NCBI GenBank assembly: GCA_002286715.1 | Contig: NSJX01000039.1 | Span: 195,774-259,773, forward strand | Source of the DNA: Dentipellis sp. KUC8613 | Taxonomy: Eukaryota; Basidiomycota; Agaricomycetes; Russulales; Hericiaceae | Direction of reading: 5' to 3' | DNA: 64,000 nt | In this document: positions 7,149 to 59,737 of the stretch, piece by piece | Position numbering within the stretch: position 1 is the stretch's first letter | How the letters are laid out: every line of letters starts with the position of its first letter | Made by a program: the position numbers and the translations under genes | Notes under the pieces: model-generated | What the model was told of the DNA's origin: nothing | The model's input: the letters and a program-made list of their open reading frames with translations, nothing else | Database searches by the model: none

Positions 7149-7151
7149 CAC

Positions 7152-8958: not shown

Positions 8959-8989
8959 CTATCCTTCAAATTGTCCGCAGCGATGTGCG

Positions 8990-9825
8990 ACTCGGAGGCG
9001 ACATCGCGAGAAGCTGATCATGAGCGTGGGCACCGTGACTGCTGCGTCCTTGAGACAGTACCGCCTGCGCAGCACCGAGACATGGTCCTCCTTCTCCAGC
9101 AGGTCTCGCCGCGCGGTGCGGCGGCGGCGGCGATCCGTGACGCGAGACGCGTCCCAGTCGTGCCCGATGTTGATCCGGGAGAGGTGGTAGAACGCAGGGT
9201 GGAGGTCCTCCGGGATGTCCGAGTCAAAGTCGCGCGCGAGGCGGACTCGGATGGCAGCCGCAGGCTCAGGGTACTGGTCGTCGGTGCCAGTGTCGCCTGT
9301 GTCGTAGAAGATGTCAGAGTCGGCGACCATTCGCCTCGCTTGGATCTCCGACTCGAGCTCGTACATCCCAGTGCCGGAGGGGCCCTGACCAGTCGGACAC
9401 GAGCTGGGCCACAATATCGATGTGCTCTGGGTCGCGCAGCGTGTCGACTTGAAATTTGTCGACTATGCAGAGGAGAGGCCGGGCTGCAGTTTGAGCGATG
9501 TGTCTGGGTCGTATGGTTTCAGCGACAAAGGTCTATGTGGATAGATAATGAGAGGGTGAGGGAAAGCAGAAAATGCTCATTCATTGCTCAGAGCATGAGT
9601 CGCGGGTTGGAGTGAAGGTATTGAAGAAGGCGTTCGCCGAGAGGGACTCGATCGTACATCTTTGTCGATTCATTTGCAGGTACAGAGAACATGTCCTCGA
9701 GAGGGCTCTTCAATGGCGAGTATGGATTTGGAAGTGCAGAAGATTACACGGCCATCTTGTAGATCCTCCCCCTGAACAACGAGGACGATGTTTCCATCCG
9801 GGTAGTATATATCTATCTACAGCTG
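8990..9825 (-). pseudogene. decayed BTB/POZ-domain gene
   Basis: Read on the minus strand, pieces of a typical agaricomycete BTB/POZ protein appear in order but in different frames. The BTB start is YYPDGNIVLVV (about 9810), followed by PLEDMFSVPANESTKMYDRV (about 9690). Then come CIVDKFQVDTLRDPEHIDIV (about 9440), EPAAAIRVRLARDFDSDIPE (about 9240) and LHPAFYHLSRINIGHDWD (about 9170), the usual helical C-terminal region. In this family these segments form a protein-interaction domain plus a helical tail. The frame changes between the first two segments and again near 9370 are not explained by splice sites, so it is most likely a pseudogene. Sequencing error or unusual introns remain possible. 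Confidence 0.6.
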
Positions 9826-38639: not shown

Positions 38640-39798
38640 GGCTGCTTGTCCTAGTCCCACCCCATCCCTTCAAAAGGGACCCGAAAGTCCTCATCCTCAT
38701 CCCTGACCTGTCCCCCTCACCTTCGTCAGACAATAGACGCTTGCCATCCCAACAAACCTCCAGAACCTCTCTTTTGATCTCCCTGTGCATGCGTATCGTA
38801 TAGCAATCTTCCAGTAAGATCCTCTGCATCGGGTTCGTCATTCGTCGCATACACAGCCACCTCAGGAGCATCTCGCCCACACCAGTATCTTCGATGTGTA
38901 CATCATGCAGCGCAATGTTCCTCATAGCGGGGAACAGCAATCCTTCCGAGTCAGGCCCGGGGTGATTCAGCGCCAACACCTCGCCCAGACTCACCGCCAC
39001 CGTGTTCTCGACGGCGACCTCGCACACCTGAACACACACCCCGAGAAATTTAACCAATCACCCGCACCGAGCGTGTCCCCGCAGCAGAGATGCAGCAGCT
39101 CGACATGGGCGAGAGGCAGCACGCCTGTGAGCACCGCGAGCTGCTGCGCTGCATCTTGCCTATGGTGTCCCGGGAACCCCCCGAGCGTCAGCTTCAACGC
39201 ATACCGCAGCGTCGTCCACGCAGGCAGCGGCTCGTCCGCGCGCGTGCTCTCCCACATCTCCACCTCGAGGCCGTAGGCGATGTCCCGAAGAGCTCCTCGG
39301 GGAGGGACAGCATGGGCATTTTGTCCGGCGGGAAATGGAGGTGCATAAGTTCGACCGTCTCCAGCATTGGCGCGGGGGTCCGGGCTCCTCCACTCTATCC
39401 AGAGATCCCGCATGTGGAACAGATGGTGCTCGAGCACTGGGCCGAGATCTGTTTCTCTTTCCTGGGCTGGATTGTATGCGATGACGATCGGAGCCGTCCG
39501 CGAGCGGCGCAGAAATTCTTGTGTCCATGGTGGTCCTATAAAAAATGGGATACGAGACCACAGGAAAGCGTGGCTGGGCGCGGCCGAGCGCCAGTGCCGA
39601 CAAACATAGGTAACCTCGATCCATCCGAAGACTACTTTTCTGGGCTTTCCGTGATTTGCGAGGATGCAAGGATAATTTTCTACCTGGAGAAGGCTGTATA
39701 AGTACGTGCGCCAGGATTTCGATGGAAAGCCGATTGGCGCGTGCGACGGCGTTGAAGCGTGTGCGTAGCGAACACATCACCGTCGACCCAGCGGCCAT
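38640..39798 (-). pseudogene. frameshifted F-box/LRR-like gene
   Basis: The family segments occur in order but in different frames. First is STVMCSLRTRFNAVARANRL (39780). Next is VTYVCRHWRSAAPSHAFLWS (about 39600, another frame), then a shortened middle with HLFHMRDLWIEW. The C-terminal module follows: LAVLTGVLPLAHVELLHLCC, a shift near 39020, then VCEVAVENTVAVSLGEVLAL and NPMQRILLEDCYTI. Part of the leucine-rich region is absent, as in the 31.3-kb gene. Frame changes without splice sites indicate a pseudogene. Confidence 0.7.
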
Positions 39799-39998
39799 CT
39801 CGAGCTCCAGTGCCGTTCGTACATCTGCACTGTGTTAGCTCAAGCTGTCCAAGCTCCAATGGCTTTCCAGTACGGCGATTATCTTTTCGTGCTCAACTAT
39901 AAGGATTATCAGCTATCCTAGAAGAGATACTCCCAATCATGAATGCGTAACGGCGCTCGAGATCATTACAGTACGAAACCTGCCAGCAACCACTCTGA

Positions 39999-40640
39999 TC
40001 AAACAGAGGGGGAAGGAATAGGTGATGGGCTTATGTAGTCGGAATCGTTATCTTCCTCGAGAATTCGTAAGTGTTTCCAAGCCACCCGAGCCCGACGAAT
40101 TTCACAGTAAATGGTCTGCAATGTCTCTCTTTGGAGAACACAATTAGTGATGGTGATTTGTTGCAAGGGACACAATCTCATGCGAGACTTCAGCCATCCC
40201 GGGAGCCAAGAGGAGTGCCCTCGTTTGAAGTTAAAGTTGATTCTTGACAGCATGAGAGACGTAAGAGACAGAAAGAGGACTCGTGGTTGTTCTTCGCTCG
40301 ATTCGACGACGTCTGGCGAGAAACCTTCCCGTAGATGGACAGGGCAGTTGACACTGATCTCAACATGCCACAGCTCCTGGCATCTGCCAAACAAGTCGAA
40401 ATAGCCTTCGGCAGGCCACGGATCACCATGTTCAAGTTCCATCTTGAGTTTTTTGATGTCTTCGAAGGGAATCATGGTGCACATCGCCATGATCTCTGCG
40501 GGATTCATGGCTTTCCCACAGAATTCAAGCTTGTATGTGATTCCTCCACTAAAAGCTGCAGATCGGCAATTTGGGCGACCTGTATCCAAGCAAGAGTGTT
40601 CCCACCCGATGTTGAAGTCTGACCATGATTGTCCAATGGT
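39999..40640 (-). pseudogene. F-box family C-terminal fragment
   Basis: Only the C-terminal module is present: MNPAEIMAMCTMIPFEDIKK, YFDLFGRCQELWHVEISVNC, LFLSLTSLMLSRINF and LCPLQQITITNCVLQRETLQ, ending in a short acidic and Ser/Pro tail. No F-box or VCRxWRS segment precedes it. Upstream on its strand lies an oppositely oriented fragment of the same family, so the frame above about 40640 is antisense of that fragment. It is likely non-functional. Confidence 0.6.
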
Positions 40641-41043
40641 CAGCCGACAGATGCATGGCTTCCACAAGAAGCTACCCGACTGGGTATGGCTTCGCACGTG
40701 CCTAGCACCACTACAGAGGATAAACATAATGATGACCAACATCGACGACAAAACTCTCTGGAATATCAGGTACTATGTCCCTGTCTTACTGGACGATGAT
40801 TATCTGCAGAAAGTCATCTATCACTCGGATGATGAGTTTGACAGTTCGGACGAGGACGGTAACTCTGAGGGTAGTGACTCCAGCGCCGACCAGGTCGACT
40901 GGTTCAACGATTATATTGATGATGATGATGATGACTCCAGTGAAGAGGGTGGCGAGTCTGAGTTGGACGTGGATGGCCTCGGAAAATCCGACGACCACGC
41001 GGAGTCTGACGCAGCGAGCCTCATGGATTGGACTTCGGACTGA
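40640..41043 (+). pseudogene. F-box family C-terminal fragment, head-to-head with the previous one
   Basis: The frame contains KKLPDWVWLRTCLAPLQRIN and MMTNIDDKTLWNIRYYVP, matching the final leucine-rich/DC segment of the family. A long acidic tail with a GAT-repeat aspartate run (about 40919-40938) ends in TGA at 41043. No upstream module exists on this strand. Together with the minus-strand fragment it forms an inverted pair meeting near 40640. Confidence 0.55.
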
Positions 41044-41580
41044 GGCTGGCGTCGAATGTGCACCCACGACACAAGGCTTCCTGTGACCAGATACTACAAG
41101 AATCAGCGCATTCGTCGGTGGAGAAAACCCAAGAAATCGATATATCAATGCTTCATCTAGTTTCTTCGTAACTGTGACCCAGCAAAATGTTTGTTAGCCT
41201 CATACTACCGCCCACCATCCATCGATACCTTCCCATGGACAACACCATACACGCCCATCCTATTCCTAGGTCACCAATTTCGTGCCCATGGATTGATCAG
41301 TATAATGTTACAGAAGGAGGCGGGCGTTCTTGCCAGCGGGTTTGGACGCGCGGTGCTGGGTTTGGGTTGGGTTTGGGTTTGGGTTGGACCGTCACTATTA
41401 ATCTCAGATCTATAGGTGGCAGCGGAATCATGACTCCGGGAAATAAAGGCCAGAGAGTAGCAGCGGGCAGATCCCAGGCTCAGGTCTAGAGAAAAAAATG
41501 TTGTCAGGGTCGACAGATACAGTACATGCCTATGCTACAAAGTCCTCAGTCTTCAGAATCCATATCGACGACACTACATA
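41044..41580. other. intergenic, no gene recognised
   Basis: A TTTGGG/TTGGG-rich run lies at about 41355-41388. No gene is visible. Confidence 0.5.
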
Positions 41581-43779
41581 TCAGGATAAGCCGTTCAGCA
41601 GCATTGTGAATAGCCAGGATGCGCACCAAGCCTCCGATTCCCGTGACGCGGGGATATATGACGAGAATTCAAACGAGCGGCCAACGAAGCTCCCGGGGTT
41701 GAAGACGTGGCATCCTTCGTATGTCATGCGGTAGCTCTCGTACTTATCTGCTAGCACGACCTATGTATATGGCAATGAGTATCTAATGATGGGGAGGAGA
41801 AGGAGAAGTGCGACGCACGGCGGTCGGCAGAGGGTACAAGCGCAGCGCGTGATCGTATTCTGACAGCACAGGTTGCACGTTGTTCGTGAGCGGTGTGAGA
41901 TGGCTCTGGTCGAGAACAGACTGCACAAGCTGTGGAAGACAAAATTAGCACCGTACCGTGCGACAGCCGGAGGGAGACGATAACATACATATCGCTTCAG
42001 CTCCTCGTTCCGCACCGCAGGCTTCACGCCGACCAAATTGCGCAGCATCCGCGCCATCATATCCTCTCTGAAAACTACGATCTCCTGCCCGAAGAACTTG
42101 ATCCTACACGGATTGCTCGCGAAGTGGATCCTGGGTACCTTCGTCTTGAGACGAGCAGTGAAGGAGGACAGTAGTGGTCGGCGCGGGAGGATCGCGTTGA
42201 CGGCAAGGTCGAGGGGACCAGGGACCAGCACAAAGTGTGTGCCTTGTGTGATGATCGGGTACGATGCAATCAAGTCTGCCAGGGCATCAAAGCCCTCTGT
42301 CCTCGTTGCTCAGCTTCGAGGAGATGTATCAAAATGGAATGAAGACCGACCATGGTATCGCTGGATATCGCGACTGTTCCCCTGCGCAATGCCGCGGCTG
42401 GTAAAGTTCCCGCAGAGCACTATCACCTTGGGGATGAAATTGTTCTCCATGCAGTTATCGAATATTTTACCGAGACCTTTCAGCGTATCCGGATGATCGA
42501 GCCAAACGTCAGAGAGAAAGAAGAAGTTCATGTGCGAGAAGTCTTCTTGTATTCGAATCGCATATTGCGTCTGTGAAATGGCGTGTTGATAAGCAGGCTT
42601 GGTCGGCAAAAAAAAAGTAAAATCGTCACATCTTCTGCAGGCGTGGTAGCACCTTTGCCGAGGAAGTCGACATGACCGTATATTGACCTGGTCGTCAAGT
42701 GTTATCAAGATAGATGGCTACATGGAGTAGATGCGGCTACCTTGCTGTCTCGCGACTCTCGCAAGGCGGATGGCCAATCGCGATCACGATAAAAGTTGCA
42801 TCTTCTGTGTAGTCTCCTTCGACAAGGACAAATGAACCTTCTGTAAAGAGACCTTCACTGGGTTGGTCCTTTGCTTACTGTATTGGACTATGTTTCCTCG
42901 GACAGTAAGTCAGATCGGTACGTACCAGAAGTGTGAAGTCGAGCTCAACTACTCCGTCTTGATCCTCTAGACACAGCTTGCCCTCCTTCGTGTGCGACAG
43001 CATCCCAAATAGCAAAAATCGCTGCCCTGCCCGTCCAAGGAGCTGCTTCGTCGACTTGATCTACAAGGAGGAAGAATATTAAATCCACAAATGAAGTTGA
43101 AACATGGATGCAACTCGCTGTGAGGAGCCGCTCCCTATCACGTGTAGGCAATGTCGATGGCGTGAAGTGCTCATTTCGCAGGATCGTTTGCCTAATGATG
43201 TTTAGCCGGTTTCGCACCGCCCATACGCGTGATTCGGCCGTCCCCAGCGCAGACAGCGCATGCGATGCTCTATCACGACGAGTCCAGTCAGGGTTGACCC
43301 TCAGAGCCCATAGGACGAACTCACTTTTCAAATGCTCCACGCTCGACACTCCAATTCCACAGTGGCATCTCAAAAGCGTCAACGAAGAACAGATGCTTCT
43401 CCGGGTCGAGGGCCACGTCTGAGAACCGCTGTCCGCCTTGTTGTCCTGCATCTTGGAGAGCCTCATACACTCGCCGTAAGACGGGCAGCGACACTTTCAT
43501 AAGGGCATCTATAAGGGAGATTAGAGTATATTTTGCAGAGTGACGTCGGGAGTACCATCTTGTTTATTGTACTCCCTCGCAAGCAATTCTATAGAGAGCT
43601 CTACATCCTCATCCGCGATGTCGTGTTCGTCAAGAACAGCCTCGAGGAATGCGAGTTCTTCTGGACCGAGCGCGTGGCCGTATTTACGGAAGATCTGTAT
43701 TGGTATGAGCGGTTTCAGCGAATAAAATGCACGTGAGAATAATGACCCGAATTATCGTCCGTCTGCGTGCCTCTGACAT
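41581..43779 (-). CDS. DPB2: DNA polymerase epsilon subunit 2 (B subunit)
   Basis: Dpb2 is the essential second subunit of the leading-strand polymerase and links it to the CMG helicase. The ATG at 43779 starts [12 protein letters not shown] 51-nt intron joins this to [20 protein letters not shown], the N-terminal domain. Later exons give [37 protein letters not shown] and [20 protein letters not shown]. The calcineurin-like (catalytically inactive in this family) domain has [56 protein letters not shown] and [20 protein letters not shown]. The C-terminus has [20 protein letters not shown]. The final residues before TGA at 41581 differ from the usual acidic ending. About ten short introns are inferred. 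Its promoter is shared with CTP1, 253 bases away. Confidence 0.92.
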
Positions 43780-44032
43780 GGAGACAAGACGAAGAAGTTG
43801 AGGAACGTGAAGAGTGTAGCCACGGTACTGTACCACGCAGGAGCGCGTCGCGACGCGTTTATTTGCTCTTATTTGTACCTCTCGTGACTCTTTCCTAATT
43901 CGTTCTCGTCATCTTCCGTCCCCTCCCAGTCCCTCTCCCGACCGTATATCCCCAGTGAGTGCATCTGGCTATTCTCAACTTGATAACAACCGACAGACTG
44001 AACATATAACGGAAGAAAGGAAGTCTCGAGCC

Positions 44033-45375
44033 ATGTCGCGTAAAGAGAACCCTCTGCATTCGCTCATTGCGGGTACAACCGCCGGTGCGGTCGAAGCGTT
44101 AGTCACACTCCGTCTCTTTTGAATCGATTGACCTCTAGATGTGCGAAGTTGACTATTTTTAATACAGTTTTGTGACTTACCCAACTGAATTTGTCAAAAC
44201 GCGCTCGCAATTTGGTGGTAAGGTGCGTTCACCGGCTGTCGGGCTTGTCACAAGAATTTTTGACATATCTTCCTTCGCAGCGCGAGGGACCTATAACGAT
44301 CATTCGCGAGACGCTACGCACGCAGGGAGTGAAGGGGCTGTACTCTGGATGCACAGCACTTGTGGTCGGGAATTCGGCGAAGGCGGGAGTGCGCTTCGTC
44401 TCGTATGACCATTTTAAGCACATGCTAGCGGATAAAGATGTGAGTCCATCTCATTCTCATCAAACTGCCAGTCTTGGATCGTGCTGATGGTATACTGTGG
44501 AGGGCAAAGTGAGTCCGCCGCGAAGTTTGCTAGGTACGTCGATTAGCGTTGTCCTTCGCGAGGGCGAGCAATGACTTCGAGGCCAGCGGGATTGGGTGCG
44601 GGGATGATGGAGGCCATCTTTGCGGTTACACCGTCTGAGACAATCAAGTACGTGTGTACCTCCGCATGCGACCTGCACTTTGTCCGACTACGTGTCCGCT
44701 TACAGGACGAAACTCATCGACGATGCCAAGCGCCCGCATCCTCAATATCGTGGATTAATTCATGGGACAGCCTCTATTGTTCGTGAAGAGGGTCTCCGTG
44801 GGATATATCGCGGACTTTTCCCCGTCGTATGCTTTCCTTCTTCAGTACTTTTCTTGGGAATCGAGACTCACAGGTTACACGCGACAGATGATGCGCCAGG
44901 GCGCGAATTCGGCCGTACGCTTCACTACGTACAGCACCGTCAAGCAATTTGTACAGAGCCGCACGAGACCAGGACAGCAACTACCAGCTGGTGTCACGTT
45001 CGGGATCGGCGCCATTGCAGGTCTAGTCACTGTTTATACGACTATGCCACTCGAGTCAGGATATGCTTTCTCTTTTCCGTGAGAGTTCAGCTGACCGTTT
45101 TTGCAGTGTGGTCAAGACTCGGATGCAATCGCTCGAAGCCAGCGCGCAATACCGCAACTCATTCCATTGCGCGTACCGCATTTTCACGGAAGAAGGCGTG
45201 CGTCGCTTTTGGACTGGTACAACGCCTAGATTAGCGAGGCTCATCGTCAGTGTCTTCATCGTTATGTCAATTGTGATGCTGGTCGCTGAAATAGTACACG
45301 ATACAGATGAGTGGAGGCATTGTATTCACGATATACGAAAGGGTTATCGGGCTGATTGGGAGTGGCGCAGCGTAA
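44033..45375 (+). CDS. CTP1: mitochondrial citrate (tricarboxylate) carrier
   Basis: This SLC25-family protein of the inner mitochondrial membrane exchanges citrate, probably for malate or other carboxylates, supplying cytosolic acetyl-CoA. The ATG at 44033 reads MSRKENPLHSLIAGTTAGAV. The three carrier signatures are visible after splicing: YPTEFVKTRSQ, TPSETIKTKLI and MPLDVVKTRMQ. The first repeat continues REGPITIIRETLRTQGVKGL, and the second has HGTASIVREEGLRGIYRGLF. The order and the SET and DVV variants match citrate carriers. About nine exons lie in 1.3 kb. The end is SGGIVFTIYERVIGLIGSG with TAA at 45373-45375. A partial duplicate lies at 47.9-48.2 kb. Confidence 0.9.
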
Positions 45376-45798
45376 GGCGATGTGCCCTGACAATGGAGTA
45401 ATTTGCTTCGCCGTTATCACAAAAACGTGCATTAAGCGTGCTTACGCTTACATTGTCCTGGTGAGTATGGGCGTAAGACGAGATAAGGCGACCTTCGGTC
45501 CTTTCTGAACAAGGAGTGTGTAGCACAAAGACCCATTGTCATATATACACATATATGTATGGGCGCAGCGCCAACAACGCAAGGTTGTCACCACCACTCT
45601 TCTTTTTCCTCCTCCACCAAGTTCTCCAGGACGATCTAGTAATATCTCGGGCGTCCAAATCCTCAAACGTACGCCGAGGTGAGATTCGTATCCTTCGATC
45701 TTTTTTGTATCACTAACACGTGGGGTCTTCCGTGCATCAGCCGCTCCATCGGTCACGTCGCCCTACCGTACATAGAGATCTCCATCGTGGCGCCACTT

Positions 45799-47406
45799 AT
45801 GTGCTCTTCCTGCAGCCGTCACAGCGCAATTGCGCATGTCAACAAGCTTTCTCCAGAAACCCTTGCCTACATCTTCGACTTCCTTCGGGTATTAGATTGT
45901 CCTCACTGCCTGTTCGTGAATGACGGTCGAAAGGAGCCTTACATAGGATGGGTCTTGGTCACTTACGTCTGTCGACGCTGGAGGTCTATTGCGCTCGACG
46001 ATCCCCGCTTATGGAGCGTCATTCCTGTTTTTCTAGGCCCTCTGTGGACCCAGGAATTCTTACAACGGGCACGGACGGTCCCCATCACTGTCGACAACGT
46101 TCTGGCCGAGCATCGTATGCCGGGAGCTGGGTCAGCCATTGGCTTTGTAGATTTTGTCCTTCGACACTTTCATCGTATGAAAGAAATTGGGATCGCAGCA
46201 TCTGCCAGCGAATTAGCCCCGATCTTTCCTTCACTCCAAGTGGCCGCCCCCGTATTGGAGAAATTTTGTATGCACAATAACGGGGGGCATCTACCTCTGT
46301 TGCCCACAGTCCTCTTCAATCAAACCGCACCTCGACTCCGTTTCATTGACATCCAGCAATTTGATTTCATGTGGTCTTCGTTGACATTCAGCGGTCTGGT
46401 TGAACTTAGTCTCTTCAGGTCACCACATAGCACCACTGCGCCCAAATCCGAACAGCATAATTTCAGGCAGTTTCTCCTCGCTCTCTCGAAGATGCCTGCA
46501 CTGGAGAAGCTGTCATTGTGTCACACATTGCCATTGCCACCTGTTGACACCACTTGCGACGTGGCTCCTATTACCTTGCCCCGCCTCCAAGACCTTTCCC
46601 TAACCGATGATGGTCTCAAATGCGTGGTGGCCCTCAAACATATAGTCACGCCCTTCACAACGAATCATTGGATCGATTTTGTCTTTTCTACGGTCAATAT
46701 GCACGACATTGAACAGGCATACTCTTGGTTCATCTCCCGAATCGGTACCTTTCCTCCAAACCCCTTTGCGTTGTTGTTAGAACCATATGAAGCGAGGTTT
46801 TCCGTCGCTTGGGAGCCTTCCCTCAGCGGCATGGGACTTGACGAGGCCACTCACGAGCCCACTTATGAGCTCACCTTCCATGGCGTCGAAAGCATGGACG
46901 AAACTTTCGCAGAGCTCGAGACGATATGTATGGCAATGCCCTTGGCCCGTATGAAGAGGTTGACCATTGATCTGCCGTACCGGAACTCATGGACCACGCA
47001 GGAATGGTTCTCCATCTTTGGCAAGTGCGAAAAAGTACGCGAATTGGAGATCTACGACTACTGTACAACCGACATTCTTCAAGCTCTTGCTTCGGTGAAT
47101 CCAACAGAGGGGCTTTCTCGACCTCTTTTCCCGTCCTTGGATTACATGTCGCTGGGGTCTATCGACTGCAAGAATCACCGACGGATGTGCGAGAAAGTGG
47201 TGACGTGGTTGACACTCCGCCAGAGGATGGATCCTTTGCGGGAGCTAGATTTCGTAGATTGCACTCCCATGGCGGACGATTTGATCCACAAGCTTCAAGA
47301 CATAATCCCTGAGGTGGGGTGCCAATATTGGGATGACAGAGACTTCTGTTGCTGCTGCTGCTCAGAGTCCGAAGAGTCTGAGGGTACGTCGATCTCCGGT
47401 GAATGA
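45799..47406 (+). CDS. F-box/LRR-like protein (sister of the 49.1-kb gene)
   Basis: This is an intact member of the local family (535 residues from this ATG). Segments run MCSSCSRHSAIAHVNKLSPE, the F-box helix LAYIFDFLRVLD, GWVLVTYVCRRWRSIALDDP and LWTQEFLQRARTVPITVD. Leucine-rich segments follow (APRLRFIDIQQFDFMWSSL, MPALEKLSLCHTLPLPPV). The C-terminal module has WFSIFGKCEKVRELEIYDYC, LFPSLDYMSLGSIDCK and LRELDFVDCTPM, then a cysteine run and an acidic tail. The ATG corresponds to the Met of the VMCSLRTR motif. Upstream codons IEISIVAPL align with LEMDAVSMV of paralogues, so the true start may lie further 5' behind an intron (the open frame extends to 45679). The presumed role is SCF substrate recognition; the target is unknown. 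Confidence 0.8.
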   Translation: MCSSCSRHSAIAHVNKLSPETLAYIFDFLRVLDCPHCLFVNDGRKEPYIGWVLVTYVCRRWRSIALDDPRLWSVIPVFLGPLWTQEFLQRARTVPITVDNVLAEHRMPGAGSAIGFVDFVLRHFHRMKEIGIAASASELAPIFPSLQVAAPVLEKFCMHNNGGHLPLLPTVLFNQTAPRLRFIDIQQFDFMWSSLTFSGLVELSLFRSPHSTTAPKSEQHNFRQFLLALSKMPALEKLSLCHTLPLPPVDTTCDVAPITLPRLQDLSLTDDGLKCVVALKHIVTPFTTNHWIDFVFSTVNMHDIEQAYSWFISRIGTFPPNPFALLLEPYEARFSVAWEPSLSGMGLDEATHEPTYELTFHGVESMDETFAELETICMAMPLARMKRLTIDLPYRNSWTTQEWFSIFGKCEKVRELEIYDYCTTDILQALASVNPTEGLSRPLFPSLDYMSLGSIDCKNHRRMCEKVVTWLTLRQRMDPLRELDFVDCTPMADDLIHKLQDIIPEVGCQYWDDRDFCCCCCSESEESEGTSISGE

Positions 47407-47879
47407 ATGCATTGGAAATCAGTACCTCATCTGTTCCCGGAGTCACATTTACCATACTCTCAATTGTTTCAACCACCTTCTAGAACTATTCCAGTCGTCG
47501 TACCGCCTACGCATGATTGTCGTCCATCGTTGTCGTGGTGCCCGAGTCACAGTTCCTACACATTCGCCTATGATATTGTGTTTTATCTCCTGACTGAATG
47601 TGAGTGTGGGGCGGCACTGGAATATATATAGGGGTTTGTAGTGGTTGTTGTAGTACTCAAGTACTCTTCGGTGAGGGAGCTATGATCAGTCTCAACTTGA
47701 AAGAACTGAGGCCCGAAGTCACAAGTCCGGGCGCTCCCGGGCGGTCACGGTTGAACGCAACGTCGACCTCAAATGTTCCTGCGCGCGTCTACTTTCATAG
47801 TTCTGACAGTCTCCCTTTGACAGTCGAAAGTGGTCTCATGCTGCTAGGTCCGCAGTGCGCACGTTTATATGGATACGAT

Positions 47880-48225
47880 GCATGCCCAACCGCCGGCACA
47901 GTTGAAGCGTAACTGCCACAGTCCGTCAATGATACGGGCTACATGGCTGTGGATCTAGTACATAACTCTGCTATAATACATAGGTCAATCTTGTCACTTA
48001 TCCGTCACCCTCCTCCTCCATACGTGCTCACAATTCGGTAGCAAGGTGCGCCTTCCGATGATCGGCATTGTCGTACGAGAATAATTTGCATCCAGCACGA
48101 GGGCCCTATGACGAACATTCACGAGACGCTCCGCGTGCAGGGTGGTAATTCACTGTACTTGGGATGCACAACGCTTGTGGTCGACCGGTCGGAGATTCGT
48201 GTCTTGTGATCATTTTCGAGACCGA
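47880..48225 (+). pseudogene. partial CTP1 pseudogene retaining introns
   Basis: The sequence matches the functional citrate carrier gene at 44.07-44.41 kb. The end of exon 1 (PTAGTVEA versus TTAGAVEA) is followed by a degenerate intron, and exon 2 (caattcggtagcaaggtgcg versus caatttggtggtaaggtgcg) by a second intron. Exon 3 has gagacgctccgcgtgcaggg versus gagacgctacgcacgcaggg. It has stops and frameshifts and breaks off after the segment equivalent to GNSAKAGVRF. Retained introns mean it arose by DNA duplication, not reverse transcription. Confidence 0.85.
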
Positions 48226-48239
48226 ATCCATTTTCGCGG

Positions 48240-49095
48240 TGGTCCTAGACGTGCAATCATATTGACTCGCCTCGTGTCTTGGTCGTAGGCCAATGGCCAA
48301 GTGATCATTGCCGAACAGGGCGTGCGCGCGCGCGTCGGCACAGGGTCCAAGCCCATCATCATCTTCAGTGTCGAAAGGAAGTGCGCGCGGGTGGAAGACC
48401 AGACGAGAAGGCGGAGAGAGCGCGAGAAGTCGGCCGGTGAGCGAGCGGGAGCGAGGAGACGAGAGATCGGGCGACGGCAGAGTCGAAACTGGGCCGCGCG
48501 GGCTCGTATATAAGTACATTCGAAGGCCTGTTTCAATAAACAATACTAAGACAGTATAACAAGACCGGTACCGTAAAATTAGAGGGCTAATGGTTAAGAA
48601 CAAAAGTAAGACAAAGAAACAAAAGGGATAATCACATGTAGACCCCGGCGGGTCGGGCGGAAGCAATGAGCGCCGCCCTCGGTGCGCACGAGGACTGCGC
48701 GATGCCCTTGATGGCGTCGATTAGGCTTTGTACGGTAAGTCAGGACAACGGAAGAAAAGAGAAACACGACGAGTAACAACGGAACCAAAAGAAACCAAGA
48801 CGAACAAATATCAAATTTCAACAATCTTGGCTACATAGTCATGAGCGCCGGCAATGAACAAGCCTGAAATTGCCACCGTGACTGTTCTTCGCACTCTTCC
48901 CACTACGGTTCACAGTTGACCAAGACCAGCAATCTCTGGGGCATCCAAATCGTTGAAAGCGTATCACGGTGAGATTTGCTAGCGCTATCTTCACTCTTTT
49001 CTTCACTGACACGTGCGACCTTCAATTCATCAGCTCCTTCGCTCCTCGAATCCCTGTCGTCGCCCTACTAAGGCCGTTCTCTGCTTGCATTACCC
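48240..49095. other. intergenic upstream of second sister F-box gene
   Basis: No gene is recognised. The last 170 bases (gcatccaaatcgttgaaag to the ATG) resemble the region just upstream of the sister gene at 45.6-45.8 kb, so they belong to the duplicated block. Overlapping frames at 48.1-48.6 kb have no domains. Confidence 0.6.
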
Positions 49096-50694
49096 ATGTG
49101 CTCTCCTCCCAGCCGTCACAACGCCATCGCATACTTCGACAAGCTTCCCCCGGAAGATCTTGCGTATATTTTCGACCTCCTTCGGGTATCAGATCCACCC
49201 CGCTACGTGCGCCTGGGTCGTCGGATTAAGGTACCTTGCACGGGATGGATTTTGGTCACCTATGTCTGTCAACGCTGGAGGTCTGTCGCGCTCGGCGATC
49301 CTCGCCTGTGGGTCGATATCCCTTTTTTTCTAGGCCCCGCGTGGACGCAAGAATTTTTACGACGGTCGCAGACAGTGCCCATCTCCCTCGAATGCGAATT
49401 AATCTATCCTAAGCCAGCGGCAAAATCAATAATAGAGCTTGCCACTCTGTTTCAACATCATTTTTCCCGTATGAAGACGGTCCTGGTCGAAGGGGCTGCG
49501 AGCGATTTAGACCCAATGGTTCCTTCTTTTCGCATGGCCGCACCTGCCTTGGAAAGATTTGTAATCAACAACAACGATAGCCATCAATTACGACAATTAC
49601 CTGCGGATCTCTTCAATGGCATTGCACCTCGCCTTCGTTTCATGTTCATCCAGCGTTTCGATTTCCTTTGGTCCTCGCTGACATTTGGCAGTCTAGTCGA
49701 GCTGCACTTGTCTCGGTGGGGTGACGGCACCGTCCGGTCCAGTTTTGAACAGCAGACCTTCGAACAGTTTCTGCTCGCTCTCAGCACAATGCCTGGATTG
49801 CAGAGCCTCGGGCTGGATAGCGTCTTACCTCCATTACCCGTCGACTCCACACTTGACTCACCAAATCTTCCGTGTGTTACCCTATCCCAGCTTCGTACAT
49901 TTGATCTGAGCGATAATGATGCCCTCAAATGCCTAGTAACTCTCAAACATGTGACCACGCCCTCAGCGACAAGTCATAATGTTACTTTCAGGTATCCGGC
50001 GGCAAGCGGGCGCGACATTGGACAAGCATCTTCCTGGTTTCTCTCCCGAGTTTGCGCTCTCCCTTCCAGCGCTCCTCTCTTGACATTTACGCTATTCGAG
50101 ACGGGATTCACAATTAGGTGGGATTCTTCCTGCACCGACGCAGGAGATTCTGAGCCCACCCATGAGTTGACGCTCTTCGGCACCGGAAGCATCAATGAAT
50201 CCCTCGCAGAGCTCAAGACAATATGTCAGAGGCTGCCCTTGTCCCGCCTCACGGAAGTTCGCGCTGACGTGGATCCTGAAGTCTCATGGAGTGTAGAAGA
50301 ATGGCTTTCCATCTTTGGCAAATGCAAAAATGTGCGCCGATTGGAGATTAGAGATTATTGTCCGGCTAGTCTTCTTCAAGCGCTCGCATCAGAGAATCCT
50401 CTCGAGGGACATTCAGGGCCTCTTTTTCCCTCTTTGTATTCCCTGACGTTGGGGTCCATCGATTTGGAGGGCGAACAGGCGATGTGCGAGGAATTGGCCA
50501 AGTGGCTGCCCTTCCGCCAGACGTTGGATCCTCTGCGGACATTCAATTTTGAAGATTGCGCTCCTGTACCCGACGAGTTGCTCCACAAGCTTCGAGATGT
50601 AATACCTGAGGTACAGTGTATAGGGGAGGACTGGGACTCAAGATGCAGCTGCTTTGAGTCAGAGGATGACACGTCAATTTCCGGTGATGAATAG
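49096..50694 (+). CDS. F-box/LRR-like protein (sister of the 45.8-kb gene)
   Basis: An intact 532-residue frame, closely similar throughout to the gene 3.3 kb upstream: MCSPPSRHNAIAYFDKLPPE, LAYIFDLLRVSDPP, GWILVTYVCQRWRSVALGDP, RLRFMFIQRFDFLWSSL and MPGLQSLGLDSVLPPLPVD. The C-terminal module reads WLSIFGKCKNVRRLEIRDYC, LFPSLYSLTLGSIDLE and LRTFNFEDCAPV, then an acidic end. Similarity extends into the upstream flank, and a CTP1 pseudogene precedes it, so it arose with its sister by tandem duplication. The two proteins have diverged most in the leucine-rich middle, as expected if substrate binding has changed. Function beyond SCF adaptor is unknown. Confidence 0.82.
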   Translation: MCSPPSRHNAIAYFDKLPPEDLAYIFDLLRVSDPPRYVRLGRRIKVPCTGWILVTYVCQRWRSVALGDPRLWVDIPFFLGPAWTQEFLRRSQTVPISLECELIYPKPAAKSIIELATLFQHHFSRMKTVLVEGAASDLDPMVPSFRMAAPALERFVINNNDSHQLRQLPADLFNGIAPRLRFMFIQRFDFLWSSLTFGSLVELHLSRWGDGTVRSSFEQQTFEQFLLALSTMPGLQSLGLDSVLPPLPVDSTLDSPNLPCVTLSQLRTFDLSDNDALKCLVTLKHVTTPSATSHNVTFRYPAASGRDIGQASSWFLSRVCALPSSAPLLTFTLFETGFTIRWDSSCTDAGDSEPTHELTLFGTGSINESLAELKTICQRLPLSRLTEVRADVDPEVSWSVEEWLSIFGKCKNVRRLEIRDYCPASLLQALASENPLEGHSGPLFPSLYSLTLGSIDLEGEQAMCEELAKWLPFRQTLDPLRTFNFEDCAPVPDELLHKLRDVIPEVQCIGEDWDSRCSCFESEDDTSISGDE

Positions 50695-51248
50695 GTCAGA
50701 TATCACTACATCATCTATCCCTGGAGCCGCATTTCCCGTTCCTACAGTCGTTTCGTTGATCTTCGGCAGCTTATTCAGTAGGCGTACCACCTAGCATGAA
50801 TGTTGTCGCTCATATTTCCCTGGGGCCCGACCTCTTCTTTGCCTCTTCTCTCCCGAACCACGGAGTCCTTGCGAGATGGATCTCAGCGAAGGGGTGCAGG
50901 CTGCAGTTCGAAGGGTTCCCTGTACTCTGTCTATTCTAGCCTACGATTATTCAAAGCGATCGGTTCACAAAGAAGCGGCGACAAGTTCGTTTTAGGTGAG
51001 ACGCTGGCGGTTATGTGTTCGGTGTAACATGCATGTCTTGTCTGTAGCCCATCGTACCAAATGGATGGCATGTAAGCAACGACACGATACAGAAACTAAG
51101 CCTTGAATATATTCAGAGCCGGTAGACCCTGCACGCCCAGCGAGGCTGACATGGTAGATGCTAGAGATGAATAGATCAGCTCATCTCGTAGGAAGTATTA
51201 TAGGCGGCTTCATGCTTATACTCACAGTGATTATGACCGACGCCAACA
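50695..51248. other. convergent intergenic region
   Basis: This is the 3' flank of two convergent F-box genes. No gene was recognised. Confidence 0.5.
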
Positions 51249-52979
51249 TCAGCCAGACGCGTTTGCGCCGCTCAGCGCATCGGACTCCGAGCCCTCGTCA
51301 GATGAGACTTCGTCCTCGACGACTACCACGATGCCTTCCTCCCTGAGCATGTTGACGGCTGCCTCATCGACAACACAGTCCTTCAAGGATATCTTTTGCG
51401 ATGGAGCCAAATTCCTGCACAGCTCTTCCGAATCTGGCCTGCTCTCTAAGTTCATGTAGACGAATGTCAGGGTTTTGAGGAAGGGATAGAGTCGCCCCGC
51501 ATGTTCTTCCAACCTATTATTCGACGCGTCGCGAAGACCGATGGGGTATGTGTGCGCGACCCTCAGATGACGAAGACTTCTGCATCCACTGAAGAAGGCA
51601 GACCAGTCCGGTAGGCTCCATGATGAATCCTCAGAGAACTCGCAACTAAGTTTCTCGAGATTTTCCAGGGGGAGCGCGTCGCAAAATGCCTTCAGCTGCG
51701 TGATGGATCTGTCGACAGAATCGTGGAAATAGAAATTGCACTGACACTCGTCCTCTGAGTCGTCATCATTGGCTCGGAAGGAATCCCACGAGATGCTGAA
51801 ACCGTCCGTCCAATCTTCAATCTGTAGCACGCGAACGGGCGGCGAATCGCCAAGCACGGATGTGAACCACGGAATCATGACTTCGCTGCTGCGTTCACTG
51901 TTGTTGTCTCCCGTACAGGCTACTTCTTGTCCCGCTGTTGACGGTATACATATATGATTGATGGCAACAGCACACTTCAAGGCATGGTCGCTCAGGGAGA
52001 ATTTGCGGAGATTGGGCAAAGTGGCAGCCGGAGCATGCATGGTGTACGACGTACTGCCGAGGGGTAAAGGGGGTACAACCGAGCTCAAATCGAGAGATTC
52101 GAGCGTAGGCATTCTTGAGAGAGCACCGACAAATTCTTGAAACCTGCGCAGCGCGGCATCGGGCTCAGCAAAGAGCTTCCAAGTCGGATTACCGTGGCCA
52201 GGCTGTGTAACCGCAAGCTCGACCAGACCGCTGAAAACAGTCAGAGAAGACCACGCGAAGTTGAACCTCGAGAGCTCGAGCTCTCGAAGCCGTGGTGCGC
52301 TGCAATTGAAGAGGTTTGTCGGTAATGATATTAGGGGTCCATGATATTTACGATTCGGAGGTTGATCGATCAGTTTGGCCTTCTCCAGGACTGGCGCTTC
52401 TTCGGTTAGAAAGTGAGAATTCTCTAAATCTGCAAGGAGACGTAATTCTCGCATATGGCCAAGGTGGTTTCTGACCATGTCAGCGACATCGTTCATAGAT
52501 CTTTTGACCGACTGGTTGCATCTACGCTCGTTGTACTTGAAGAGAATGGGAGCTGACCGTGCTCTGCTGAGAAAAATTCCCGGCCATTGAGACCCCATGC
52601 CTAAGTCGACATTGGACCATAGATGAGAATGATTGAGGGCGGTAGACCTCCATTGCCGACAGACGTAGCTAACCCGAAGCCAACCAACATAAGCTCCTTT
52701 CTTCTTTCCGCGCTTTCGAGCGCGCAGCGGGTAGATGATCTGTACAAAGTCAAATATACGTGCGAGGATTTCTGGAGGGAGTCGGTTGACATGCGCAGTG
52801 GCATTGAAGCGAGTACGAAGAGAACATATCACCAGCACGACTGCGTCCATCTCGAGAGCCAGGAGACTACGTGTCTTCGCGATACACTCCGCCGACGCAA
52901 AGCTCTGTGGACGATCCGATCCATGTGCAAATCTCTGTTCCTCGGCGTTTCGCCAGTACTCCAAGGCGCTATGAGCCAA
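51249..52979 (-). CDS. F-box/LRR-like protein, full-length form with EYW N-terminus
   Basis: At 576 residues this is the most complete member in the window. It begins MAHSALEYWRNAEEQRFAHG, continues with LEMDAVVLVICSLRTRFNAT and the F-box VNRLPPEILARIFDFVQ. Then come GWLRVSYVCRQWRSTALNHS and SQWPGIFLSRARSAPILF. The leucine-rich middle has APRLRELELSRFNFAWSSL and MPTLESLDLSSVVPPLP. The C-terminal module has WSAFFSGCRSLRHLRVAHTY, LYPFLKTLTFVYMNLESR and an acidic Ser-rich end. It is a single exon with no visible defect. It serves as the local reference for judging truncations in the other copies. Confidence 0.85.
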   Translation of the reverse strand: MAHSALEYWRNAEEQRFAHGSDRPQSFASAECIAKTRSLLALEMDAVVLVICSLRTRFNATAHVNRLPPEILARIFDFVQIIYPLRARKRGKKKGAYVGWLRVSYVCRQWRSTALNHSHLWSNVDLGMGSQWPGIFLSRARSAPILFKYNERRCNQSVKRSMNDVADMVRNHLGHMRELRLLADLENSHFLTEEAPVLEKAKLIDQPPNRKYHGPLISLPTNLFNCSAPRLRELELSRFNFAWSSLTVFSGLVELAVTQPGHGNPTWKLFAEPDAALRRFQEFVGALSRMPTLESLDLSSVVPPLPLGSTSYTMHAPAATLPNLRKFSLSDHALKCAVAINHICIPSTAGQEVACTGDNNSERSSEVMIPWFTSVLGDSPPVRVLQIEDWTDGFSISWDSFRANDDDSEDECQCNFYFHDSVDRSITQLKAFCDALPLENLEKLSCEFSEDSSWSLPDWSAFFSGCRSLRHLRVAHTYPIGLRDASNNRLEEHAGRLYPFLKTLTFVYMNLESRPDSEELCRNLAPSQKISLKDCVVDEAAVNMLREEGIVVVVEDEVSSDEGSESDALSGANASG

Positions 52980-53438
52980 TCATACAAGTATTTCGACTGG
53001 TAAGCGTCGCTCTAGTCGACCGGTGAATCTCGCACCTTACTGTAACGTCCACAGCTGGCATGATGGTATGGCCTATCCGTAATGAAAAGTGCTTCGCTTG
53101 AATTTGTGAGAGGACTTCGCTCGAAAGAAGCCAACGTGCAGGCCTTTAGTTACCTAGGGAACCGTGGGCGTCTACTCAGAGCGTCTGTATACACAGACAC
53201 GTGCAGGCGCTTAAAGTTCACCTCGAGCGCCGAGCAGACAAGTCGAGCTTGACAGCTTCAGTCAACCATCGTCCTGCAGAATTTCCCCATGCTGCAAGGA
53301 CAAGCACCTAGACTGCCTCTAACGTCGATTGCTTAAATATTGAAAGGTGACTACGACCATCCACGTCGCTAATTGATGAACTTTCTATCTCACTTGCTTT
53401 GAAAGGAACAGCAACTCATTTGTCTGGAGCTCGTTCTT
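52980..53438. promoter_or_regulatory. divergent intergenic region between two F-box genes
   Basis: About 460 bases separate two divergently transcribed F-box genes. They contain the short direct repeat cgtgcaggc(c/g) + ttta/ttaa (about 53130 and 53201). No TATA box was seen. Confidence 0.4.
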
Positions 53439-55118
53439 TTGAAAAGACTCCCTCAGCATCACACGTCACCACAACTTCGTACGGTCATGGGCCCCCTTCT
53501 CCCCTCTCGCGATTCTGTTGTAAAGGCCAACCGGATCCCCTCGGAAATCTACGCGCAAATATTCAGTCACCTCCAGGAATCCGACCCACCAAGCTTCATT
53601 CAGGAGTATGGAGATCCGGAGAAACTCCACCTTGGATGGCTCTACGTGACTCATGTCTGTCAACACTGGAGGTCTGCGGCGCTCGCTCAATCTCGTTTAT
53701 GGACGGACGTGCCTTTTCTATTGGGTTCTGCATGGACAAAGGAGTTTATACGACGGTCGCGTACGGCACCGATCTCGTTTAACTGTGATCTATACAACGG
53801 CGTGACCGAGGCAACGAGGGCTTCGTTAAACGTCGCTGGGATGATCACGCAGTCTCTTTCTCGTATACAAAAACTCAGGATCGTAGCAAGGACCGATGAT
53901 ATCGCGTCAATCATCCCATCGTTTCGCGGGGCAGCGCCGATTCTGGAGAAGTTCGCACTCGAAAACGTAGCCACAATCCAAATCGACCACTTCGGACGAC
54001 CGCCACTATTGCCCGTTGATCTCTTCAGGCAGTCCGCCCCGCGACTTCGTTCCCTGGAAGCTTTGCGGTTCAACTTCGCGTGGTCATCTCTCGTTTTTGA
54101 CAATTTAGTGGAGCTCCGGCTTAGTCGGGCAGAGTCGGACAACGTTGGGCTTACTCCTCAACCCCAGAACCTGCAGCATGTTCTCAACGCCCTTTCGAAG
54201 ATGCCCCTCCTAGAGGTTCTCGTTCTGCGGGGTGTTCTCCCAGTAACCGATTTATCTGAAGTCGAAAACGTCGCCTCCATCTCTTTGCCCAACCTCCGCA
54301 GCTTCGAGCTGAGCGGTGATGGCCTTAGCTGCATCCTCGCCCTTTTGCGTATAAATACACCCCCCACAACAAACTACACGGTACACTTCAAATATGTCCT
54401 GATCAATCGATACAGCCGCGAATTATTTCTCTCGTGGTTCACCTCCCGAGCTCGCGCCCTACTCCCTGCCCGCACGTTGACGGTCGGGGTTTGGGAGACA
54501 AATTTCAGCATCACTTGGGAGCCCTTCACGGCCCCTCAAGACACGGAAGACCCTGACCTCATCACTCACGTTTCCGAAGATGGCAGGCCTTTCTTCGACA
54601 TCCAGTTCCATGGATTCGCTCAGGCCCATTCCTATATAGAACTCGAATCATTCTGCAATGCGTTAGCCTTGGAGAAGTTGGAAACGCTCACCGTCAATCT
54701 CGATGACGCCCCGCAAGTCTCGTGGAATGCACAGCGATGGTCCGCCATCTTTGGTCGATGCGAGAACGTACACTGCCTCGAGGTCTTGTCCTCTTATCCA
54801 GCCGGCCTCTTCCAAGCCCTCACGACGGAGAATCCAATCGAAGGGCGCTCGGGACCACTTTTCGCTTCGATGCAGCTCCTTGGGCTGGAGTCGATTGACT
54901 TCGAGCAGAACAACCTCTCCGAGTCGCTATTGGCGTGGTTGACACTCCGGAAGGAGCTGGCCGCCTTCCAATGCTTGGAATTCACTGACTGCACCGCTCC
55001 GAAAGATGTTATTCGCAGGATACGGGACCAAGTTCGTCAAGTTTACTGGGAAGGAGACCGAATCGAGCCCCCGCCCAACAAGACCGCAGGATTCGAGGCG
55101 CCGATGTCCGTTGACTAG
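53439..55118 (+). CDS. F-box/LRR-like protein
   Basis: An intact 559-residue frame; an alternative start at 53487 (MGPLLPSRDSVV) aligns with the MCSxxSRH start of the sister genes. Family segments are KANRIPSEIYAQIFSHLQES (F-box), GWLYVTHVCQHWRSAALAQS, WTKEFIRRSRTAPISFN, APRLRSLEALRFNFAWSSL and MPLLEVLVLRGVLPV. They continue with WSAIFGRCENVHCLEVLSSY, LFASMQLLGLESIDFE and FQCLEFTDCTAP, and a proline-rich end. There is no visible lesion. It is more distant from the 45.8/49.1-kb pair than those two are from each other. Confidence 0.82.
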   Translation: MKRLPQHHTSPQLRTVMGPLLPSRDSVVKANRIPSEIYAQIFSHLQESDPPSFIQEYGDPEKLHLGWLYVTHVCQHWRSAALAQSRLWTDVPFLLGSAWTKEFIRRSRTAPISFNCDLYNGVTEATRASLNVAGMITQSLSRIQKLRIVARTDDIASIIPSFRGAAPILEKFALENVATIQIDHFGRPPLLPVDLFRQSAPRLRSLEALRFNFAWSSLVFDNLVELRLSRAESDNVGLTPQPQNLQHVLNALSKMPLLEVLVLRGVLPVTDLSEVENVASISLPNLRSFELSGDGLSCILALLRINTPPTTNYTVHFKYVLINRYSRELFLSWFTSRARALLPARTLTVGVWETNFSITWEPFTAPQDTEDPDLITHVSEDGRPFFDIQFHGFAQAHSYIELESFCNALALEKLETLTVNLDDAPQVSWNAQRWSAIFGRCENVHCLEVLSSYPAGLFQALTTENPIEGRSGPLFASMQLLGLESIDFEQNNLSESLLAWLTLRKELAAFQCLEFTDCTAPKDVIRRIRDQVRQVYWEGDRIEPPPNKTAGFEAPMSVD

Positions 55119-58271: not shown

Positions 58272-59024
58272 TCAGTTTGCTGCGGGAAGAGACATGCAGT
58301 CAATATCTGTGCGCGTCTTGAAATTCGATGTGATTCACCTGCTATACCATGCTTCGAGCGATGTTTAAGCCAAGCTTTCCAATTGCGCTCCATCGTGTCA
58401 TACACCGCCCTCCAATCCCGACAGATGTGTATCTGCCCGACCATGTCCGAGGTGAAATTGCGAGTGACGAAGTCTTCCGGCTCCAGTGTCAAGTCGGCTT
58501 TGCAAAGACTCGTGCGGCGCAGGTAATTGAAGCAGTGTTCTAGATGAATAACAAGACTTTTCTCCTCTTGTGCAAGTATGCTTCGGATGTATCGCAGACA
58601 GTGCATGGGATGCGTCATTTCTGAGTAGAATACCCGCTGCTTCGGTCCAACGCGAACGAGGCCAGCTCCGTAAGGCGAAGTGTACTCCCATTCATCAGAC
58701 GCTCCGTCGCCGTTGACACCATAATGCGTATTCTCCTCCACGATCATCTGCACCGGGTGGCCAAAGTTCCCGGGCAGCATGTTCGGATAGTCAGACCCTT
58801 CGTAGCCTGTCGGCTGCTCTAGCATGCAAGAAGCGAGGACGATGGGACTCTGAGAGTAACGCACTATAGTTAGCAAGAAGCCTCATGTTCGTTGAGGGAT
58901 GAGGTGTTGAAAATTTGATGTCCCGTGTAACAAGAAGTAGGGAGTGAGAAAGGATGATTGAGACAGCGCTCAGAATAGCGAATGCCAACGCCGAATCCAG
59001 TCCGTCTTTCTTCGATGCCCCCAT
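58272..59024 (-). CDS. UstYa-like (DUF3328) oxidase
   Basis: UstYa-family proteins are copper-type oxidases that cross-link or cyclise core peptides in fungal dikaritin RiPP pathways (ustiloxin, phomopsin, asperipin). The best model has three exons (59024-58865, 58818-58348, 58279-58272), 212 residues. A short N-terminus (MGASKKDGLDSA) precedes one membrane anchor (LAFAILSAVSIILSHSLLLV). The conserved region has YEGSDYPNMLPG, IVEENTHYGVNG, the first HxxHC (HPMHC, residues 123-127), the second HxxHC (HLEHC, 145-149) and the family signature HICRDWRAVYD. The 8-nt last exon is supported by a CCCGCAG acceptor. Reading through instead ends at 58154 with a Cys-containing tail. The frame is also open upstream to 59216, but the start beside the membrane anchor is preferred. 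It is divergent from the small peptide gene at 59.4 kb. Confidence 0.85.
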
Positions 59025-59376
59025 TTTCCGTTTATTGGAATTTGGACGACAGTGAGGAGGACGTCGGGGACGTCGACGAATCGGCGTAGCGGCGATGCGG
59101 ATAATGTACAAGTTGAGAGGAAAGGGGCCGTTCTGCCGACTTGGAGCTGACCTGGGAGGATTGCCTACCATCAGCACATCCTCATCCCAAATGAAGAAGT
59201 CTGGATTTGGCATCAAATAGTCACCCTGGAGAATGTTCTAGCACCGAGGTGGAGCTTGGGTCAGTCGCGGATCCATTGAAGATCCTGGACCCTGAAGACT
59301 GTACGGGTTATCCTGATCCGTAATGCAGCAGGACAATGAGGGAGGCGGCAAACGCGCTGAAGCAAGTATAAAATCT

Positions 59377-59383
59377 CCTCTGC
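59377..59383 (+). promoter_or_regulatory. TATA box of the small secreted peptide gene
   Basis: TATAAAA occurs 48-54 bases upstream of the ATG at 59431, consistent with a short leader. It supports the small frame as a real gene. Confidence 0.6.
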
Positions 59384-59430
59384 GACTAGGTTCAGCCCTT
59401 TATCTGAAGCCTGGTTGACACACCTGGACC

Positions 59431-59737
59431 ATGAAGTCCTCCGCATTATTTTTCTACGTCTTTGTTGCCTGCCTCTCTCAGTTAGTGTTGTCTGCACCCA
59501 TGAGCTCTAGGGATCTTGCGGATGCCGAATCAGACAGCACGAAAGGTTTGCATCGTTTATCATTTTGCCACCGCAAGCACTAAGCATGTTAAAACGTAGA
59601 CATTGAGCTATCTGGTTCCCCCTTGGACGCAGACATTGTTGTGTATCCGTACCACTGGCCGCCGCCGGGTAAGTCGTGGTTTTCTCGTCATTCCACACGA
59701 ATGCATGCTCATCTGCGGCTTACCTGTAGAAATTTGA
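59431..59737 (+). CDS. small secreted peptide precursor, candidate RiPP substrate
   Basis: Three exons (59431-59545, 59600-59668, 59730-59737) encode 63 residues. Introns are 54 and 61 nt; the second has a canonical GTAAGT donor. Residues 1-22 form a signal peptide (MKSSALFFYVFVACLSQLVL, cleavage likely after SA). An acidic Ser/Asp-rich leader follows, with no dibasic Kex2 site (only single R and K before D). The C-terminal twelve residues read VVYPYHWPPPEI, rich in aromatic side chains and proline. Retaining intron 2 keeps the frame open and would add a basic tail ending at about 59750. The UstYa-like gene is divergent across about 400 bases. No sequence family is recognised. A plain small secreted protein is the main alternative to a modified-peptide precursor. 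Confidence 0.6.

Follow-up and report, generated by a model that had tools for sequence, protein, structure and literature searches.

A putative UstYa oxidase gene and its small secreted neighbour in Dentipellis sp. KUC8613 suggest a family of single-core modified ribosomal peptides

At the end of contig C105 (NSJX01000039.1; 259,773 bases) of the wood-dwelling basidiomycete Dentipellis sp. KUC8613 (Russulales, Hericiaceae), two divergent genes encode a putative oxidase of the UstYa/DUF3328 family and a small secreted peptide. Both are located in the window, the stretch of 64,000 nucleotides analysed here (positions 195,774 to 259,773 of the contig). The question raised by this locus is whether the peptide is the substrate of its neighbour, and hence the precursor of a ribosomally synthesized and post-translationally modified peptide (RiPP). 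An earlier note on this DNA had described a single two-gene module and had linked the genes by their position. The module turned out instead to be one site of a multi-locus family, with nine small secreted precursors at seven UstYa loci of the 34.1 Mb genome, which contains 16 UstYa matches. This paralogous family is associated with one group of UstYa proteins, and leader and oxidase diverge in parallel. The functional link, until then a matter of position, gains support from the eight further UstYa-adjacent peptides, the common UstYa group and the parallel divergence. Judged from the sequences, the window pair is likely to be one of several RiPP cassettes in which precursor and oxidase belong together; for a cross-link as the reaction, the chances are about even.

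The oxidase gene (58272..59024, minus strand; exons 59024-58865, 58806-58339 and 58279-58272) encodes 211 residues, and its translation is identical to the NCBI protein P0001 (DENSPDRAFT_455538). As the earlier note had stated, the protein contains two HxxHC motifs, HPMHC at residue 119 and HLEHC at residue 141. The Pfam family UstYa (PF11807) matched with 51 bits at a curated cut-off of 25, a score obtained with a 215-residue model whose intron is 12 nt shorter than in the adopted 211-residue model, which is that of NCBI. A hydrophobic stretch is present at the N-terminus, N-x-S/T patterns are found at residues 52 and 170, and cysteines 155 and 182 are located C-terminal to both motifs. The protein is a putative copper oxidase, and the motif histidines together with the hydrophobic stretch and the two later cysteines make the lumenal oxidation of a secreted precursor the natural reading. 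An AlphaFold2 monomer built with three sequences was discarded as too poor for the copper site to be judged (mean predicted local distance difference test score, pLDDT, 38.7). Among solved structures no relative was found, the sole match being a thymidylate synthase with an E-value of 0.76.

The precursor gene (59431..59737, plus strand) consists of exons 59431-59545, 59600-59668 and 59730-59737 and encodes 63 residues with a signal peptide, so that the three-exon gene proposed before could be retained. The divergent layout held as well: the two start codons are separated by a common intergenic region of 406 nt (59025..59430), and a TATAAAA box at 59367 lies 64 nt upstream of the ATG of the small gene. 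Within this region, a stretch of 63 columns (59245-59306) shows 76% identity to its counterpart at the C143a locus. Exon 1 (59431..59545) codes for the signal peptide and the pro-region, which form the leader (residues 1-38), and ends with a phase-1 donor; a profile of its relatives alone recovered it with an E-value of 1.9e-12. Intron 1 (59546..59599, 54 nt) follows directly behind the leader, and in all nine members it was read from the sequences in the same place and in phase 1. The spacer GSPLDAD (residues 44-50; 59614..59634), also present in C143a and replaced by GPPLNAD in C143b, is followed by the candidate core VVYPYHWPPP with the terminal residues EI (59638..59737), which is interrupted by intron 2 (59669-59729). 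Exon 3 completes E62 and supplies I63 and the stop codon, and it aligns at the nucleotide level with exon 3 of C143b, which yields E-V. The C-terminal end of the peptide reads VVYPYHWPPPEI. It contains one candidate core and no dibasic pair. Among the annotated proteins found by a profile search that required shared exact words, the window peptide was absent.

The nine precursors are C105 (the window), C143a, C143b, C161a, C161b, C161c, C103, C111 and C89, each with a UstYa gene no more than about 3 kb away. When the window peptide was compared with the complete genome, four further leader-like exons emerged with E-values from 0.009 to 0.09, every one beside a UstYa gene, and these four matches form the unbiased part of the evidence for proximity. 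Eleven UstYa regions and the window were then scanned with a profile of five leaders, which brought in C161b (E 8e-8) and C89 (E 1.4e-4); C103 and C111 were picked up in these regions by looking for exons that encode signal peptides. In five genome searches with family members (E-values up to 10, scores being given for the best candidates), five places were matched besides the queries' own exons, four of them next to UstYa genes. The fifth, on C107, had an E-value of 0.16 and lies within an open frame of 564 codons (queries C161b, C89, C103 and C111).

When each member was left out of the leader profile in turn, the three C161 members being removed together, seven of the nine were recovered with E-values from 1.9e-6 to 3.2e-13, the best non-member having 0.037. 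The models of C103 (62 residues) and C89 (63 residues) are letter for letter identical to annotated NCBI proteins, which provides independent support for the gene structures; for the other seven precursors, the search limited to shared exact words retrieved no annotated protein. For exon 1, the ratio of nonsynonymous to synonymous substitution rates (dN/dS) was finite in 27 of 36 pairs, with values of at most 0.64 in 21 of these and 0.79-0.88 in three. A TATA box is present 59-68 nt upstream of the ATG in six members (C105, C143a, C143b and the three of C161) and a TATATA at 95 nt in C103; upstream of the ATG of C111 and C89 none was found. Scanning 108,910 bases of UstYa loci gave 10 candidates, including all nine members, compared with two in 109,700 bases of control sequence, a comparison which is biased because the donor patterns of the genes already found were among those allowed. 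The tenth, at 8089 on the plus strand of L013 (C126), is a loose candidate for a secreted peptide of 48 residues ending in TSCPFKL, with a class-II UstYa match about 0.9 kb away; among the UstYa-locus regions compared, it had no relative at an E-value below 1.

Across the family the leader is related and the C-terminal end is variable. The leaders end in ..DSTK (C105), ..DSTD (C143a), ..DTVE (C143b), ..DATE (C161a), ..DSLE (C161b), ..DFWE (C161c), ..NSLE (C103), ..DMLE (C111) and ..DLPN (C89), and the corresponding second parts are DIELSGSPLDADIVVYPYHWPPPEI, APAGSPLDADILHYFTW (or, if the second intron is spliced, LHYFT), DAASAGPPLNADEYFHGRGWRRAAEV, AGALAVGPQPAAILNETDN, AVALAAGPQPAEVLRERK, AAALRAGSAPAAILEEVTAGGS, ALALEKGPLLTIVHCWACNPDVDEP, AMALEEDPVSPDDFLPFAAVEDPDA and RRPPIHRPHIYQLELAAAEAGHESTE. 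Read from the alignment, core repeats are absent from the eight relatives of the window peptide. The earlier note had expected a conserved YPYHWPPP-like end beside UstYa homologues. Such an end is ruled out as a hallmark of the family, and a test for its conservation would wrongly refute the pair, since the leader is the conserved part. The absence of a dibasic site, likewise, is true of the window peptide, C103 and C111, but is not a rule of the family, because dibasic pairs occur in six of the nine members. KR or RR is found at residues 26-27, at the start of the pro-region, in C143a, C161a, C161c and C89, while RR 38-39 of C89, RR 58-59 of C143b and RK 53-54 of C161b are located in or beside the core region, so that Kex2 might cut there, but not at the window. 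Altogether the precursors point to modified ribosomal peptides that form one family and have an unusual one-copy design.

The 16 UstYa proteins of the genome were sorted by eye into two kinds. The 11 proteins of class I carry two complete or almost complete HxxHC motifs, the second motif of the C143b protein being HPISHC. In the five of class II, HQL[RKQ]C is followed by a second motif (xxxHC) lacking its first histidine, so that two of the four copper-binding histidines are kept; they group at 92/93. Every class-II gene shares its region with a class-I gene (C161, C89, C111, C86 and C126), and the class-II proteins are possibly non-catalytic partners of intact UstYa proteins. The seven class-I proteins encoded beside precursors form one group (92/96), which was present in 92% of the bootstrap trees, and the precursor label was never so clustered in 500 shuffles. 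With midpoint rooting, the other four class-I proteins (C139, C99, C126 and C86) fall outside this group, and the chance of the exact split of seven and four was calculated by hand as 1 in 330.

Precursor and oxidase have also diverged in parallel. The distances of leaders and UstYa proteins over the seven loci gave a Mantel r of 0.755, and 62 of 5040 permutations were as high (the C161 leaders being averaged). Within the precursor-bearing group, a subgroup with 98/98 comprises the oxidases of C105, C143a and C143b, whose precursors have the GSPLDAD/GPPLNAD spacer in common. Between C105 and C143a, DNA identity is 74% for 450 bases of the oxidase gene and 73% for 144 bases at exon 1, which suggests a joint duplication of oxidase and peptide. 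A head-to-head arrangement with about 0.4 to 0.8 kb between the start codons is found at C105, C143a, C143b, C103 and C89, the starts at C103 and C89 being our own reading. At C161 three precursors are lined up behind a class-II gene, and at C111 the precursor also lies behind a class-II gene. On C143, L017 and L018 (C143:1-9900 and 39000-48900) are inverted, diverged copies of one block, with pieces of 68-90% DNA identity, containing a UstYa gene, a precursor gene and a gene for a further secreted protein.

Several observations weigh against the cassette reading. C161b, C89, C103 and C111 were sought at UstYa loci only, and their location is therefore not independent evidence. In the leave-one-out test C103 (E 4.6) and C111 (not listed) failed, and both are assigned to the family by their position, the intron phase and a weakly matching A.ALE in the second exon. 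For exon 1, dN/dS exceeded 1 in three pairs (1.01 for C105-C143a, and 1.17 and 1.37 in two others), dS was infinite in nine pairs, and only 34-37 codons are available per pair. The support of 92 for the precursor-bearing UstYa group is below the value of 95 that is starred. Within 9.9 kb around each of the UstYa genes of C86, C99, C126 and C139 no precursor of the family was found, further flanks being covered for the first three. None of the eight open frames of the window given to Pfam (44-64 kb) was seen to encode a tyrosinase or a methyltransferase; tyrosinase, methyltransferase or S41 peptidase genes are not present in all known dikaritin clusters. At the loci with both UstYa classes, Trp was found in none of the five cores and Tyr in one (C89), and the C161 cores AILNETDN, EVLRERK and AILEEVTAGGS contain no aromatic residue at all. 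Finally, the family was drawn from the sequence of one genome.

If the window peptide is the substrate, its maturation might proceed as follows. The signal peptide would take the precursor into the secretory pathway, with pro-region and spacer serving as leader and the C-terminal stretch VVYPYHWPPP, perhaps with EI, as the single core. The adjacent UstYa protein would be anchored by its N-terminal helix, its catalytic domain facing the lumen of the endoplasmic reticulum or Golgi apparatus, where copper bound to the four motif histidines and O2 would allow oxidation of the core. The most likely product would be cross-linked through side chains, with Tyr, Trp or His taking part. As no Kex2 site flanks the core at the window, general secretory proteases would trim the core before its secretion. 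In this proposal, the copper, O2 and dimer chemistry of DUF3328 proteins is taken from published work, while we infer that the peptide is the substrate, that its core is cross-linked and then trimmed, where this core begins and ends, and that the oxidase domain faces the lumen. The calculated [M+H]+ values are 1496.757 for VVYPYHWPPPEI (1494.742 after loss of 2H and 1492.726 after loss of 4H), 1609.841 for IVVYPYHWPPPEI (1607.826 and 1605.810) and 1155.562 for VYPYHWPPP (1153.547 and 1151.531).

The nature of the reaction is where an alternative survives best. The peptide may be the substrate, with its core hydroxylated, dehydrogenated or halogenated and left linear, an outcome included in the probability given to the cassette reading and by itself possible but rather unlikely. 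DUF3328 proteins reportedly install dehydroamino acids in phomopsins, according to the title of a study. The non-aromatic C161 cores fit such chemistries, and because of them tyrosine cross-linking is ruled out as a chemistry common to the whole family. Involvement of DUF3328 proteins in hydroxylation and halogenation is mentioned in PMC12435403. At the four loci with a single UstYa gene, however, the cores contain His and Trp (Trp in three of four, should the second intron of C143a be spliced out), and in three of them also Tyr, which would suit aromatic coupling. Counted by locus, Trp is present in four (or three) of these four, compared with none of the three loci with both classes, the sole Trp of C161c being located in the leader; for four of four, the chance was calculated by hand as 1 in 35, for a pattern that was noticed post hoc.

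Less probable, and on balance quite unlikely, is the explanation that the small peptides are unmodified secreted signals or effectors, which lie near UstYa genes because fast-evolving secreted genes are clustered and co-regulated, while UstYa acts on something else. Modification of the peptides is a prediction, the C161 cores are devoid of the residues coupled by known UstYa cyclases, and DUF3328 enzymes are described to act on non-ribosomal peptides too (PMC12435403). However, the genome searches gave the single C107 match away from UstYa loci, the precursors are tied to one UstYa group whose distances run parallel to those of the leaders, and a conserved leader with a variable end is typical of RiPP precursors. 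That the window gene is a chance or decayed open reading frame, as its absence from the annotated proteins found and an exon 3 that finishes one residue and contributes one more might suggest, is hardly credible in view of eight relatives with equal intron phase, the recovery of its exon 1 by their profile, the conservation of exon 3 in C143b and a TATA box at the distance found in five relatives.

The cassette reading can be compared with known systems. CctR is described as a membrane-anchored dimer requiring O2 and electrons, with two copper ions per monomer assigned to the histidines of HxxHC(x)nHxxHC by modelling and spectroscopy, and AprY and ApnU are reported to be copper- and O2-dependent dimeric DUF3328 enzymes (PMC12435403). 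The window oxidase shares with them the paired motif, the N-terminal membrane helix and later cysteines, which probably correspond to those of CctR. The substrate of CctR is, in contrast, a non-ribosomal peptide, and the five class-II proteins differ from all three enzymes in keeping two of the four motif histidines. AprY is required for asperipin-2a, with the core FYYTGY and tyrosine ether links (PMC6514808).

Dikaritin precursors consist of a signal peptide and repeated cores at Kex2 sites (PMC9769878, PMC12048977). Like the dikaritins ustiloxin, phomopsin and asperipin-2a, the window has a signal-peptide precursor gene adjoining a DUF3328/UstYa gene with paired HxxHC motifs, and Tyr follows the leader in four of the nine family precursors (C105, C143a, C143b and C89). 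Unlike them, it has a variable single C-terminal core without repeats or a dibasic site, in a two-gene cassette of a basidiomycete. Thus the pair looks dikaritin-like in its working, yet lacks two hallmarks of the precursor.

Kex2-processed repeat proteins (KEPs) are likewise small secreted pro-proteins, and the KR or RR that four members carry at residues 26-27 is a further likeness, but they have several repeats with Kex2 sites, whereas the precursors described here have one core. Beside another UstYa gene, on the plus strand of L009 (C139; about 6976-7215, 7786-7950 and 8851-9210), small secreted genes were found, one of which contains three near-identical units R-A-[IV]-P-[IV]-PGAFVEGxGVTQxT, with a related unit in two neighbouring stretches. 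From its sequence, it is predicted to be a repeat-type, KEP-like precursor in which single arginines replace the dibasic sites.

Borosins and cycloamanides are basidiomycete ribosomal peptides with one core, as proposed for the window, whose precursor differs from theirs by its signal peptide and UstYa partner. The core of borosins is described as C-terminal (PMC7878506).

The remaining neighbourhood of the window adds little to the cassette. Five of the eight open frames compared with Pfam were F-box-like or mitochondrial carrier sequences and three had no match; four F-box-like frames are located at 45643-55115, two above the Pfam cut-off and two just below. A gene for a sedolisin (S53), which ends at about 57.9 kb, adjoins the UstYa gene and was rejected as a dedicated processing protease. 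The sedolisin pro-domain family has 74 matches in the genome, many on contigs C94, C104 and C84, and none on contigs with UstYa matches besides that of the window, so that this neighbourhood is probably accidental.

In the protein collection, one precursor profile (A1) gave no match (151 candidates), a second (A2) two, both from Dentipellis (941), and the UstYa query three, all from Dentipellis (98); as shared exact words were needed, absence from other species is not implied. In Pleurotus, 16 UstYa-like genes are reported (PMC8893723). For basidiomycetes, the open-licence papers searched contained no account of a family of UstYa precursors with a single core, and other work may exist.

It may tentatively be proposed, with more doubt than confidence, that basidiomycetes have a UstYa-RiPP system of their own, with short, non-repeat, single-core precursors sharing a common leader and carrying a hypervariable core. 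In this system a single UstYa protein would couple aromatic cores, while hetero-pairs of class I and half-site class II would direct other oxidations on non-aromatic cores. If true, this would explain why basidiomycete UstYa genes are seldom found beside repeat precursors. With one core and no repeats, such precursors are not expected to be found by repeat-based searches, and annotation-based mining may miss them as well, as seven of the nine had no counterpart among the annotated proteins retrieved by shared exact words. The family now supplies a concrete search profile and nine precursors that can be tested.
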